Under the pieces are notes generated by a model. The model did not search any database. It saw nothing but the letters and a program-made list of their open reading frames with translations, and was not told the DNA's origin. Positions 4,197 to 24,317 of a stretch of 64,000 bases of DNA are shown in pieces. The stretch spans positions 1,426,001 to 1,490,000 of the forward strand of contig NZ_CP011308.1 in assembly GCF_000987835.1 (NCBI RefSeq). Reading direction: 5' to 3'. Positions within the stretch are counted from its first letter, which is position 1, and every line of letters starts with the position of its first letter. The translations under genes and the position numbers were made by a program. Origin of the DNA: Sulfurovum lithotrophicum. GTDB taxonomy: Bacteria > Campylobacterota > Campylobacteria > Campylobacterales > Sulfurovaceae.

Positions 4197-4241
4197 AGAA
4201 TAGCAATTTTTTTAAAAAAAATCTGTAAGAATAATCCTACA
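4197..4241 (-). promoter_or_regulatory. RcsAB-box-like operator and promoter upstream of pglF
   Basis: TGTAAGAATAATCCTACA (4224-4241) is a near-perfect inverted repeat. On the minus strand it is followed by a T/A-rich spacer and TTGCTATTCT, an extended -10 type box (TATTCT at 4197-4202). The same arrangement recurs at 19465-19509 and 23872-23916. Confidence 0.6.
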
Positions 4242-19171: not shown

Positions 19172-19175
19172 CTAT

Positions 19176-19330
19176 TTATAATCTCCACGTAGGATCTTCC
19201 ATGATCCCTTTAATACCGATAAGCACCGGTTCATCTATACTGATACTTTCATACTTACTTCTTCCAAGTTCTTTAAACATTTTATGCCCCATAGTAACTC
19301 CGAGCATGTCATAATTCCTGTTTTCAGGTA
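19176..19330 (-). pseudogene. C-terminal remnant of a nucleotide-sugar dehydrogenase
   Basis: The minus strand ends with codons for VTMGHKMFKELG and DEPVLIGIKGIMEDPTWRL, which resembles the C-terminus of UDP-/GDP-sugar 6-dehydrogenases of the TviB/WbpA type (pattern: V..H..FK.L....vl.DIKG......RL). An open frame extends to 19412 but its first 35 residues look unrelated, and the rest of a roughly 420-residue enzyme is missing. It sits just downstream of the second operator, so it is likely the scar of a deleted gene that once headed this transcript. Confidence 0.5.
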
Positions 19331-19464
19331 AAATCATTAAAGGCCAATGTAGCCAGTTCCAGCAATAGCTATTTAATATTGCAAGGATAGGTAAAGGAAT
19401 GGGAATATGCATTATTTTGTTCCATCTTAACTATCCCCTTGTCCCCTGCCTTTTATTTTTCATA

Positions 19465-19509
19465 ATAATAGCTTTTTTACTCAAGAATGTATGTAGGAAT
19501 AATCTTACA
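19465..19509 (-). promoter_or_regulatory. RcsAB-box-like operator and promoter of the manC-gmd-fcl transcript
   Basis: TGTAGGAATAATCTTACA (19492-19509) is followed on the minus strand by ACATTCTTGAGTAAAAAAGC and TATTAT (19465-19470). The spacing and A-rich spacer match those of the copy at 23872-23916. It would drive manC and downstream genes. Confidence 0.65.
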
Positions 19510-19706
19510 CGTTGGATTTAAATTCGGGTATATCCCCGCTTTATCTTCTCCTGAAGCCTCCGCATACAGGGTGAGATTCCGGAAGCCATTCGGGAGTGTC
19601 AGCATAGCGGTGAAGCCACCTTTCTATCTCAAAACAAAGTGGATTACCAAGCGGGATATCGTATATAACCAAATGATATATTTAAAAACTTTTCATCCAA
19701 TCTTCT
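19510..19706. other. Structured intergenic segment between wza and the second operator
   Basis: This 197-bp gap contains several short inverted repeats, including GGTGGCTTCACC (minus strand), CCGGAAGCCATTCGGG (plus strand) and GCGG/CCGC arms around 19555-19620 that could close a branched fold. No gene or intrinsic terminator with a T-run was seen. The identity is unknown. Confidence 0.3.
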
Positions 19707-20500: not shown

Positions 20501-21232
20501 TTATAGTTTATCGTTCATAATCTCATTATGCGCGAATATCTCTCTGTAAGCATCAGACTTCAAAACCGCTTCCAGTGTGTCAACATGTTTTTGACGATGC
20601 ACATCAGAACCGAGAAAATCGATCATTCCGTTCCGGCTTAAAAATTCAGCCAGGACTTTTGCCGATTTTCCGTAATAGCCGCCGAAAGAGTTTAGATTGA
20701 CCTGAAACAGTACGCCAAGCTCTTTGAATCGACCGTACTCTTTTAGAGGCTCTTTGATGTAGCGGTACCGTTCCGGATGTGCCATAACAGGTGTGTAGCC
20801 TGCCAAGGTGATTTCAAAGATCATCTCTTCGGTTCGCAGCGGTTTGGAGACATAGGAAGTTTCAAAAAGCAGATACGTCCCGTTAATCGCCATCACCTCT
20901 TCTTCTCCGAGAAGATCAATGAAACCGTCATCGAGGTAATACTCGGCAGCAGCATCGATCTCCATTTCTATGCCCTCCTCTCGGGCAGCGTTACGAAGTT
21001 CTTCCAGACCTGTCTTGATGATCTTCGGCGTATTTTTGTAGGCATCGGCCATGATATGCGGTGTGGTAATGAGCTTTTCATAGCCCAGAGCTTCCATACC
21101 TTTGAGCAGAGTGAGGCTCTCTTCCATACTTTGGGAACCGTCATCGATACCGGGGATAAGGTGGGAATGCAAATCTACCTTCAACTGCGGGGCAGGCTTC
21201 CTCTCCTCTTTTTTTCTAAAGAAAGAGAACAT
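20501..21232 (-). CDS. PHP-type protein tyrosine phosphatase (CpsB/YwqE-like)
   Basis: This 243-residue metal-dependent phosphatase belongs to the PHP family, which removes phosphate from the tyrosine cluster of BY-kinases and so controls polymer length and export. Metal ligands are visible in VDLHSHLIPGIDDGS (HxH), TTPHIMADAY, VMAHPERYRYI and FLGSDVHRQKH. The stop/start junction with wzc overlaps by 1 nt. Pairing of this phosphatase type with a Wzc kinase is usual in Gram-positive bacteria and several Campylobacterota. Confidence 0.88.
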   Translation of the reverse strand: MFSFFRKKEERKPAPQLKVDLHSHLIPGIDDGSQSMEESLTLLKGMEALGYEKLITTPHIMADAYKNTPKIIKTGLEELRNAAREEGIEMEIDAAAEYYLDDGFIDLLGEEEVMAINGTYLLFETSYVSKPLRTEEMIFEITLAGYTPVMAHPERYRYIKEPLKEYGRFKELGVLFQVNLNSFGGYYGKSAKVLAEFLSRNGMIDFLGSDVHRQKHVDTLEAVLKSDAYREIFAHNEIMNDKL

Positions 21233-23544
21233 TACTTTTGATCATCCTCGTAGTAGCCGTAGCCATATCCGTAACCGTAACCATAGCCGTTTCTGTCCAT
21301 GCTTATATCGTTGAGCAGTATGCCCAGTCCTTCGATCTCTTCATGCTTATAGAGTTCATCGATCCCTCTGATGAAGCCTTTTTTCGAGTACTCGGCTCTG
21401 AGTACAAAGATGCTGGTATCTGAAAGGTGCATCAATGTTCTCGCATCCGTTACAAGACCGATAGGCGGAGTATCCATGATGATGACATCATACGTTTCAC
21501 CCAGTTTCTCAAGTACCTTTTTCATCAACTCCCCCTGGATCAGTTCACTCGGGTTGGGAGGAACCGGACCGGAAGTAATGACATCGAGGTTACTGTACTC
21601 TGAATGCTGGATCACATCGGACAACGCCGTATGTTTGGAAAGCAGCGTACTCATGCCTTTGGTATTCTTCAGCCCAAACCTTTCATGCAGTGTCGGTTTC
21701 CTCATATCCATATTCAGCAGGATCGTTTTTTTGTCAGCCATACTCATGATCGCTGCCAGGTTCATACTGACCGTACTTTTACCTTCCCCGCCTATCGTTG
21801 ATGTAATAGAGATGATATGGGAGCTTTTTTCTTTTTCCATGAATTGCAAATTGGTACGAAGGTGCCTGAACGATTCCGCAACAGCGGATTTTGGTGAAGC
21901 GACCACCGTCAACTTCTCGGCATCTTTTTTGATATGGGGGATCATCCCCAGCAACGGTACATTCGTTGCACGAGAGACATCCTCCTCGCTTTTGATACGG
22001 TCATCGAGGAATGCCCTCAGGAATGCCAGGGCGATCCCGACGATCAAGCCTAGGATCATCCCCACCAGTACGATGAGTTTTCGTTTAGGCTTGATGGGGT
22101 CTTTCGGGTAGAGCGCTGTATCGATGATACGGTTCTTGCTGACTGTCGCCGCCTTGATGATGGCGGTTTCCGAGCGTTTCTCCAGCAGGTAGGAGTAGAT
22201 CTTTTCATTCACCGAGAACTTACGCTGAAGCTGGCCGAACATTCTTTCGTCTGCAGGCAGCTTGTCGAGCAGTTTCTGCGACTGTGCTATGGACTTCTGC
22301 AGAAGCACCTTTCGCTCTTTGATGTTCTTCTCCATATTCTTGATCGTGGAGATGATCACTTTTTTAAGCTGGACGATAGTCTTTCTGAGTTTCACGACTT
22401 CCGGGTGCATCTCCGTGTAGTCCGCACGCAGGATCTTTTTCTTGATGATCGCATCCTGGAGCTCCTTGATCATTCCGGCAAGTGAAGACTTTGACTTGTC
22501 TACACCTACAAGCGCCAGACTTTCCAGATTTTTTCCGGATTTGACACTCTGGTAGAGCTTGGTGAGCATCTCTTCTTCTATACTTATCTCGGAGAGCTGG
22601 GTCTCCTTTTCGCTCATTTGTCTGATAATAGTCTCGGCCTTGGCGCTCAGACTGATGGTGCTGGAGCTTTTTTTGAACTCTTCAAGCTTCACCGCCGAGC
22701 TTTTCAGGTTTTCCGTGATGAACTTCAGCTGCTTGTCGATGAATTCAAGTTTCTGGGTCGCCTCTTTAGTCTTCTTTTCAATGCTCTGCTGCAAGTATGC
22801 TTTTGCCAGGGCATTGGCAAACTCTTGGGCACGCAGAGCGACATTGTCTTCATAGGAGATCTGCAGGACCATAGAGTATTTGGAAAGTTGGCTGACGCTT
22901 ACACCTTCCTGTGCAATGGAACCTTCCTCTTTGGGATCATAGACGACAAAACGGTACTTTTTGTCTGTCATCTTTCCTGTTTTAACAACATTGAGGTGGA
23001 AATAGGGGGTATCTATCTCTTGGCCATAAGGCAGGACTTTGTCATAATTGACAACGGTAACGGTTTTGTTCTCATCCTCGTATTCCGGCAGTACCAGACG
23101 GTAGCGCTTCTCATCGACAGGATAAAGCTCGAATGATATATCATAGCCCCTGAGCATCCCTACCCGGAACGGACTGGACGTGTAGAGTTCCACCTCCCTG
23201 AATAGGCGCGTGGTATAGTAGCGGTGCAGTACATCCACCTCTTCAGCCGCTTTGCCTGCCAGAAACCTGGACTTGATGATCTCCATCTCCGTTTCGGTAT
23301 TTTCCGCACCCGGTGACATCGCCATGGAAAGAATATCCTGCCCTCCTCCATAGCTGCCGTAACCCTCAGTACCCACTTCGACTGTGGAAGAAGCTTTATA
23401 GACGTTGGGTTTGAAATAGGCGATACCGGCACTTGCAAGGGTAAAAATGACCACAAAGAGTATGATCATATATCTGTAGCGGTAAATCGTTCTGAATACC
23501 TCTTTGAGGTCTATTTCGTCTTCATCAATCTGTGTATCATTCAT
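21232..23544 (-). CDS. wzc: Wzc-type polysaccharide co-polymerase and BY-kinase
   Basis: This 770-residue protein has a Wzz domain with two membrane segments (about residues 29-48 and 485-505) enclosing a long coiled-coil periplasmic part, then a cytoplasmic tyrosine kinase with Walker A (TIGGEGKSTVSMNLA), Walker A' (TILLNMDMRKP) and Walker B (VIIMDTPPIGLV). The tail holds seven tyrosines in an alternating Gly-Tyr run ending YYEDDQK, the autophosphorylation cluster. That run is encoded by six near-identical 6-bp units (about 21250-21285), which invites slippage. The kinase drives Wzy-dependent polymerisation and export; its partner phosphatase overlaps by 1 nt. Confidence 0.93.
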   Translation of the reverse strand: MNDTQIDEDEIDLKEVFRTIYRYRYMIILFVVIFTLASAGIAYFKPNVYKASSTVEVGTEGYGSYGGGQDILSMAMSPGAENTETEMEIIKSRFLAGKAAEEVDVLHRYYTTRLFREVELYTSSPFRVGMLRGYDISFELYPVDEKRYRLVLPEYEDENKTVTVVNYDKVLPYGQEIDTPYFHLNVVKTGKMTDKKYRFVVYDPKEEGSIAQEGVSVSQLSKYSMVLQISYEDNVALRAQEFANALAKAYLQQSIEKKTKEATQKLEFIDKQLKFITENLKSSAVKLEEFKKSSSTISLSAKAETIIRQMSEKETQLSEISIEEEMLTKLYQSVKSGKNLESLALVGVDKSKSSLAGMIKELQDAIIKKKILRADYTEMHPEVVKLRKTIVQLKKVIISTIKNMEKNIKERKVLLQKSIAQSQKLLDKLPADERMFGQLQRKFSVNEKIYSYLLEKRSETAIIKAATVSKNRIIDTALYPKDPIKPKRKLIVLVGMILGLIVGIALAFLRAFLDDRIKSEEDVSRATNVPLLGMIPHIKKDAEKLTVVASPKSAVAESFRHLRTNLQFMEKEKSSHIISITSTIGGEGKSTVSMNLAAIMSMADKKTILLNMDMRKPTLHERFGLKNTKGMSTLLSKHTALSDVIQHSEYSNLDVITSGPVPPNPSELIQGELMKKVLEKLGETYDVIIMDTPPIGLVTDARTLMHLSDTSIFVLRAEYSKKGFIRGIDELYKHEEIEGLGILLNDISMDRNGYGYGYGYGYGYYEDDQK

Positions 23545-23614
23545 CTGTAGTTCATACCTTGGAAAATATGTTGTAGTAAGTGGAGGTTACCTCTGCCTTC
23601 CTCTACAAAGAAAG

Positions 23615-23648
23615 CCTTTTCGGCAAAACTCACCTCTTACCGAAAAGG
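23615..23648 (-). terminator. Attenuator/terminator-like hairpin in the wzc leader
   Basis: On the minus strand CCTTTTCGG (23640-23648) pairs with CCGAAAAGG (23615-23623) across a 16-nt loop, giving a 9-bp stem followed by CTTTCTTT. It lies between the promoter at 23872 and wzc at 23544, directly after the stop of the decayed upstream gene. Confidence 0.5.
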
Positions 23649-23652
23649 GTAA

Positions 23653-23820
23653 CTATTGGAACGTGTCAGTTACACCCAGGTTAAATGCATCGGCATCACA
23701 TGTACTGATAACAGTTAATGCAAGACCGGCATAAAAACTGCTGTCATCTGCTATCGCTGCCCGGTTCTTCGACAACAGGTGCTACGGCAAGCAAGTCTCC
23801 ACAACTCCCAACATACTCAT
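23653..23820 (-). pseudogene. Decayed small outer-membrane/surface protein gene in the wzc leader
   Basis: A strong ribosome site (GAGGAGGG) precedes an ATG at 23820, but the frame stops at codon 13 (TAG, 23782-23784). The same frame then continues to 23653 with ADDSSFYAGLALTVISTCDA, which looks like the first strand of a small beta-barrel protein. In a neighbouring frame the sequence GDLLAVAPVVEEPGSDS precedes it, so one frameshift joins the two parts. It reads as a broken gene between the promoter and the terminator-like hairpin. An alternative is a 12-residue leader peptide. The remaining leader sequence to 23871 holds nothing else I recognise. Confidence 0.45.
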
Positions 23821-23871
23821 CCCTCCTCTTCTTTCATTTTAAATATTCACTGCATTATATTTTATAGTGAT

Positions 23872-23916
23872 ATAATAGCTTTTTTCCTCCAGAATATCTG
23901 TAGGAATATTCTTACA
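23872..23916 (-). promoter_or_regulatory. RcsAB-box-like operator and promoter of the wzc operon
   Basis: TGTAGGAATATTCTTACA (23899-23916) is an almost perfect palindrome. On the minus strand TAAGAATATTCCTA forms its core, followed by GATATTCTGGAGGAAAAAAGC and TATTAT (23872-23877) as a -10 box. The 5' leader to wzc would be about 320 nt. Confidence 0.7.
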
Positions 23917-23942: not shown

Positions 23943-24317
23943 TCAATCCTCAAAAATAACAATATCGTACGAATTCTTGGTTACCAGCGCTTTGCTGACA
24001 TGTACCGAACCGTTACGGTTGACCTTGCTGAGCTCGTCTCTGAGCTGCTCGATCTCTTTTTGCATTTCCTCTATCTGCTCCTTGAGCTGCAGGACGATGT
24101 CGACCCCTGCAAGGTTTACACCCATCTGCCGTGTCAGGCGCAAAATGAGTTTCATACGGTCGATATCTCTCTGGGAATAGAGACGCATACGCCCCTGCGT
24201 ACGGGAAGGTTCGACCAATCCTTCTCTCTCGTACTGCCGGAGCGTCTGGGGATGGATGTCCAGCATCGTTGCCACTACGGAAATGAGATAGACGGGTTCA
24301 TCATAGCTATGCATCAA
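23943..24317 (-). CDS. hspR: HspR, MerR-family heat-shock repressor
   Basis: This 124-residue protein has an N-terminal winged helix (VYLISVVATMLDIHPQTLRQYEREGL, then RLYSQRDIDRMKLI) and a coiled coil (residues 75-105, QLKEQIEEMQKEIEQLRDEL). It lacks the metal-binding cysteines of sensor MerR proteins, as HspR does. In Campylobacterota HspR represses chaperone operons by binding CTTGAGT-N7-ACTCAAG (HAIR) sites. It lies 9 nt after cbpA in one operon, and a HAIR-like site overlaps that operon's promoter at 25535-25555, so it probably represses itself. Confidence 0.9.
   Translation of the reverse strand: MMHSYDEPVYLISVVATMLDIHPQTLRQYEREGLVEPSRTQGRMRLYSQRDIDRMKLILRLTRQMGVNLAGVDIVLQLKEQIEEMQKEIEQLRDELSKVNRNGSVHVSKALVTKNSYDIVIFED

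Follow-up and report, generated by a model that had tools for sequence, protein, structure and literature searches.

In the group 1 capsule loci of E. coli and Klebsiella (wzi-wza-wzb-wzc), the polysaccharide cluster is headed by an outer-membrane barrel gene. Wzi itself has been described as an outer-membrane lectin (PMC3791409), and a stem-loop between wzc and wbaP in these loci has been proposed to act as an attenuator (PMC3438125). Among the titles listed in the literature on wzc attenuators or stem-loops and on group 1 capsules, nothing concerned the Campylobacterota. Here we describe the EPS cluster of Sulfurovum lithotrophicum in a stretch of 64,000 nucleotides (hereafter the window), which resembles the group 1 loci in having a barrel gene, here a relic, at the head of the cluster and a stem-loop inside it. 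However, Wzi is a different and larger barrel than the OMP_b-brl gene found here, and the Klebsiella stem-loop is placed past wzc, whereas that of the window lies ahead of it. We put a probability of roughly 0.88 on a reading in which the region ahead of wzc is a pseudogene, its hairpin is inherited, the wzc message probably carries both, and no sensing switch is involved.

Organisation of the wzc leader

The first gene of the EPS cluster, wzc, is followed by a CpsB/CapC-type gene, a Wza-type export gene, a manC-like gene and more sugar genes. On the other side, the leader is bounded by a MerR-type gene, presumably hspR-like, which adjoins a DnaJ gene. The features between these limits are as follows, where L012 denotes the locus of the closest relative (Wzc 89% identical).

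23943-24317: MerR-type gene, upstream limit of the minus-strand leader region ahead of wzc
23899..23916, minus strand: 18-bp palindromic box TGTAAGAATATTCCTACA, resembling the GacA site TGTAAG-N6-CTTACA
23872..23877, minus strand: candidate -10 TATTAT, exactly 21 nt past the box, with a predicted start near 23865
23854..23859, minus strand: alternative -10 TATAAT (6/6), 39 nt past the box, for which the start would be near 23847
23821..23830, minus strand: polypurine, ribosome-site-like AAGAGGAGGG
23782..23820, minus strand: 12-codon frame MSMLGVVETCLP, with ATG at 23820 and TAG at 23784-23782
23744..23821, minus strand: first piece of the OMP relic, in a shifted frame, ending GSCGDLLAVAPVVEEPGSDSR and a stop (compare GSFAVAGGDIVPVPVVAES in L012), placed by eye
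23653..23748, minus strand: second piece of the OMP relic, first strand (DDSSFYAGLALTVIST) joined directly to the last one (DADAFNLGV), terminal stop TAG
23693..23697, minus strand: GATGC where the two sides of the deletion meet; compared with L012, 134 codons (402 nt) have been lost in frame
23615..23648, minus strand: terminator-like hairpin with imperfect T tract CTTTCTTT, most likely derived from the OMP gene's 3' end
23545..23614, minus strand: rest of the leader before wzc, in which the closest match to a -10 hexamer is just 4/6
21232..23544, minus strand: wzc (polysaccharide co-polymerase / tyrosine autokinase)

The ribosome site, 12-codon frame, β-barrel-like continuation and hairpin of the original prediction are thus all present on the minus strand where it had placed them. 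Three terminator-like sites were detected between 23300 and 24400, the one at 23648-23615 having the most pairs, and a sigma-70 scan of the same interval found no promoter. At Rfam gathering thresholds, the whole window gave no match to a known RNA family, and hence no known riboswitch is supported.

An outer-membrane protein gene precedes wzc in related genomes

Homologues of Wzc were sought in 60 genomes, including that of S. lithotrophicum (a single contig of 2,217,891 bases), and were present in 35. The upstream DNA was compared at 28 loci, comprising the window's own and those of 27 relatives; four more genomes, G018, G025, G032 and G033, in which Wzc matched in part, contributed no locus. 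Wzc was at least 54% identical in 19 of the 27 relatives' loci, all from the same genus. In 15 of the 19, the DNA directly upstream of wzc encodes an intact ORF of 197-235 residues; an intact OMP gene also lies ahead of wzc in a Sulfurovum MAG (L010). These are the intact homologues of the β-barrel fragment for which the original prediction had proposed a search. Elsewhere the position is altered: an in-frame TAG interrupts the ORF in L023, which comes from a draft genome, the 5' part of the OMP gene is missing in L013, other genes occupy the place in L025, and in L020 the contig provides just 450 bases upstream of wzc, within which the OMP ORF is absent. No such ORF adjoins wzc in the other eight loci, where Wzc is at most 49% identical and one of which (L038) had just 375 bases upstream; in several of these eight a Wza-type gene stands ahead of wzc.

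All four intact copies that were scanned matched PF13505 (OMP_b-brl), with E-values from 5.5e-17 to 5.8e-12, and the alignment of 17 copies (the 15, that of L010 and a tandem copy in L016) contained 26 invariant columns. The β-barrel assignment follows from Pfam; an AlphaFold model of the intact L010 protein, run without an alignment, reached a pLDDT of 35 and was set aside. Two barrel genes in tandem occupy the position ahead of wzc in L016 (3-1289), and a second frame-broken, barrel-like reading was seen by eye upstream of the OMP gene of L023. Other members of the family are retained in the S. lithotrophicum genome, where a profile of the intact copies gave four matches over 177-204 of its 204 positions and a fifth spanning 64 of 204.

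The window retains a relic of this gene

Pairwise alignment of the leader with L012 showed that the flanks, both ends of the relic and the hairpin are collinear around one large gap. The gap corresponds to the 402-nt deletion, and L012 has the GATGC of its junction at each of the two break points. The reading changes frame twice, once out and once back: frame 0 gives MSMLGVVETCLP and a stop, another frame gives GSCGDLLAVAPVVEEPGSDSR and a stop, and frame 0 again gives DDSSFYAGLALTVISTCDADAFNLGVTDTFQ, which runs from 23748 to a stop ending at 23653 in the same frame as the 12 codons and has its counterparts in L012 in NSSFYLGLAVTAMSTRDAS and, at the C-terminus, DADAFNLGVIYKF. The inactivating changes comprise the deletion, the two frame changes and the stop codons. 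The 12-codon frame overlaps, in a different reading frame, the signal-peptide region of the relic, and that end is too scrambled for the old start codon to be placed.

With a profile built from 17 intact homologues, the second piece scored 7.8 bits, while the best of 6000 shuffled frames reached 6.4; the first piece, scored alone against the profile of intact copies, gave -1.0 bits, is no evidence on its own and was placed by eye. At the DNA level, the local score of the relic exceeded that of all 200 shuffles for three of the six relatives tried (46 versus a shuffle maximum of 29 for L012, 48 versus 27 for L017 and 31 versus 27 for L016), equalled the maximum for L014 and fell below it for L018 and L021. 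The 40-aa piece had no Pfam match, and a search of the S. lithotrophicum genome with the 40-aa fragment returned that fragment alone.

Assignment as an OMP_b-brl (PF13505) pseudogene comes from homologues at the same gene position together with inactivating changes, the relic itself having no Pfam match. It keeps the first and last strands of the relatives' intact homologues but, in contrast to intact members of the family, is deleted, frameshifted and not translatable. What stands ahead of the EPS genes is the remnant of a gene for a small outer-membrane protein, for the most part a case of ordinary gene decay. The original prediction had raised the possibility of a scar left by a small surface protein gene, and the intact homologues at the same place in relatives bear this out.

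The hairpin and its descent

The hairpin at 23648-23615 has nine outer Watson-Crick pairs, or 14 when G-T pairs are counted, followed by CTTTCTTT, and is stronger than 40 of 40 shuffles of its own intergenic stretch (z -3.2). A 14-pair stem lies at the equivalent place in L012, just past the stop codon of the intact gene. Six bases differ between the two stems, yet all 14 pairs are kept and two of them are changed on both sides; random substitutions of 2+4 bases preserve all pairs with a frequency of 6.7e-4. Stem pairs were counted by script, the MAFFT alignment of the two stems having shifted the 3' arm by one base. Among 17 relatives, 11 have a hairpin matched by at most 1 of 40 shuffles within 75 nt past the OMP stop, although these include near-sister loci and are not independent cases. 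Over the same distance, no hairpin stood clearly above shuffles in L013, L017, L024, L027, L028 and L032, and none was found by eye in the short gap ahead of wzc in L010. L012 is the only close relative that aligns through the hairpin, so the case for descent is built on one sequence pair; on this comparison, the barrel gene most likely had the stem at its 3' end before the scar arose.

Whether such a stem would terminate transcription is borderline. Its folding energy is -18.2 kcal/mol, its T run is broken by a C, and its terminator score is -4.7 against a cut-off of 0. It could instead have stabilised the 3' end of the OMP message, or stopped an RNase there, without ever terminating transcription, and be neutral today, as would fit the scores below 0 of 10 of the 11 hand-picked stems scored among the 17 relatives. 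We consider this unlikely in view of the T-rich runs past the stems of the window (CTTTCTTT) and L012 (ATTCTTCTTTTTT) and of one L017 stem scoring 16.5.

A putative regulator box upstream of the scar

The consensus for the GacA upstream activating sequence is TGTAAG-N6-CTTACA, and GacA sites lie at -75 or -196 at rsmY/rsmZ (PMC4950607). The box of the window, TGTAAGAATATTCCTACA, differs from this consensus at one position and would lie about 42 bp ahead of its predicted start, compared with -75 or -196 at rsmY/rsmZ. Six sites with at most one mismatch to TGTARGAWTAWTCYTACA occur in the genome and none for a reversed control pattern; with a looser pattern allowing two mismatches, the control gave two sites per strand. 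The six precede wzc, manC and a 507-aa Polysacc_synt_2 gene, all within the EPS cluster, as well as two FIST genes and a GGDEF response regulator; their locations are 23899-23916, 19492-19509 and 4224-4241 in the window, and L004, L008 and L009. A TAnnnT hexamer follows at exactly +21, in one orientation, in 15 of the 17 box sites examined (20 were found), the exceptions being L041 and L042 and the count having no shuffle control.

A NarL-type regulator gene (G000:C1:367809-368456) adjoins one of the boxes, and its best NCBIfam match is UvrY/SirA/GacA at 130 bits, below the curated cut-off of 280. Among 28 same-genus genomes (G000-G027), the regulator is encoded (E 1e-30 or better) in all six that bear the box and in 2 of the 22 that do not, in one as a fragment. 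Outside the family, G038 has a single one-mismatch site inside an ORF and no match to the regulator, and the genome of L012 has neither the box nor a regulator match. By its box-to-hexamer spacing and the co-occurrence of the regulator, the site ahead of wzc is a predicted GacA/UvrY-type activated promoter.

Only one other of the 28 loci, that of G020, has the box ahead of wzc, and there the box lies past the OMP remnant. At this locus (L013; G020:C65), the OMP gene without its 5' part stands beside an unrelated ORF, with the box promoter directly ahead of wzc, and the regulator gene of G020 is about 5 kb away on the same contig. Within the window, about 535 nt without a recognised gene (19172-19706) separate the Wza-type gene from manC and contain a box site; a 43-aa ORF inside them (19179-19307, minus strand) had no Pfam match, and the stretch is possibly another gene remnant.

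Where wzc transcription would begin

Both -10 choices past the box, TATTAT and TATAAT, would place the start of the message upstream of the scar. The interval between the OMP gene and wzc in the window has no TATAAT, and together with the box promoter candidate upstream of the scar this suggests that the wzc message probably starts near 23865. Transcripts of wzc would then probably cross the old hairpin.

It is also conceivable that wzc, like its counterparts in relatives, is transcribed from a separate promoter downstream of the hairpin, such that the scar and hairpin leave EPS expression untouched. TATAAT occurs between the OMP stop and wzc in 8 of 16 relatives against 1.65 expected from shuffles (P 3.8e-5, a value that treats sister loci as independent and is hence too small); a 17th, L032, has none in this interval. 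The box promoter of L013 is itself past the OMP remnant. We nevertheless regard a separate wzc promoter in S. lithotrophicum as doubtful, as the best hexamer in its interval matches at 4/6, 26 nt ahead of wzc, and the box promoter candidate, which shows the 21-nt spacing seen at other boxes, is upstream of the scar.

Attenuator or inherited hairpin

The original prediction had noted that a leader peptide followed by a terminator-like stem is also the layout of an attenuator for the EPS operon. In a functional attenuator, translation of the 12 codons or binding at the ribosome site would decide whether EPS transcription terminates at 23648-23615. The order of promoter candidate, ribosome site, short frame and terminator-like stem is what such a device would have, the stem is unbroken despite the dead gene, and the purines of the ribosome site can pair with the 5' arm of the hairpin before the 3' arm is made (ddG -9.8 kcal/mol), a capture equalled or bettered in 5 of 200 shuffles. 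This pairing is a lead and no evidence of a switch. Leader-peptide attenuators have codons for the sensed residue and a stop close to the alternative structures; here, the 12 codons (MSMLGVVETCLP) contain no run of one regulatory amino acid, and their stop (23784-23782) is 133 nt ahead of the stem, which starts at 23648. In the fold of the full leader, the nine outer hairpin pairs have probabilities of 0.96-1.0, except the outermost at 0.21, which argues against an equilibrium antiterminator, and the terminator score is slightly below 0. Moreover, the same stem follows a gene that is still intact and full-length in L012, and the 12 codons are a misread piece of the relic. A purpose-built attenuator for the EPS operon is therefore not supported, and we consider a functional one of any origin very improbable.

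Slightly less credible still is that the parts were exapted, in that the EPS cluster came under the UvrY/GacA-like regulator, the OMP gene was destroyed and its ribosome site and terminator became an attenuator, with ribosome occupancy of the dead start freeing the 5' arm and stopping EPS transcription. The OMP gene is truncated in the second box-driven lineage, G020, as well. Given that the best promoter candidate is upstream of the scar, a passive and constant leaky-terminator effect of the old hairpin on wzc is possible.

Under the favoured reading, that of a pseudogene with an inherited hairpin, the layout to start from is that of most relatives examined, an outer-membrane β-barrel gene of about 200 residues directly ahead of wzc, often with a 3' hairpin. 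An internal deletion at the short GATGC repeat took out 134 codons, and the frame changes, one out and one back, and the stop codons also broke the gene. The ribosome site and 12-codon frame are its degenerate 5' end, and the terminator-like stem is the hairpin formerly 3' of it. A wzc message beginning near 23865 would carry scar and hairpin as an untranslated leader of about 320 nt. The sequences show the homology, the deletion, the frame breaks, the kept pairing of the stem and the box with its spacing, and from them we infer the start site, the read-through and any effect on the level of EPS. If active at all, the hairpin would act as a constant partial terminator or as an RNA-stabilising stem, not as a sensing switch.

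Implications for Sulfurovum EPS clusters

The comparison suggests that EPS clusters in Sulfurovum usually begin with a gene for a small outer-membrane barrel, and that this gene was lost to damage in several lineages, at least two. In S. lithotrophicum, the arrangement of box, hexamer and scar suggests that EPS transcription probably starts at the regulator-box promoter upstream of the scar. There is no need to pursue this wzc leader as a novel riboregulator. Should the old hairpin still act as a terminator, the decay of one gene would here have left the operon behind it with a brake.
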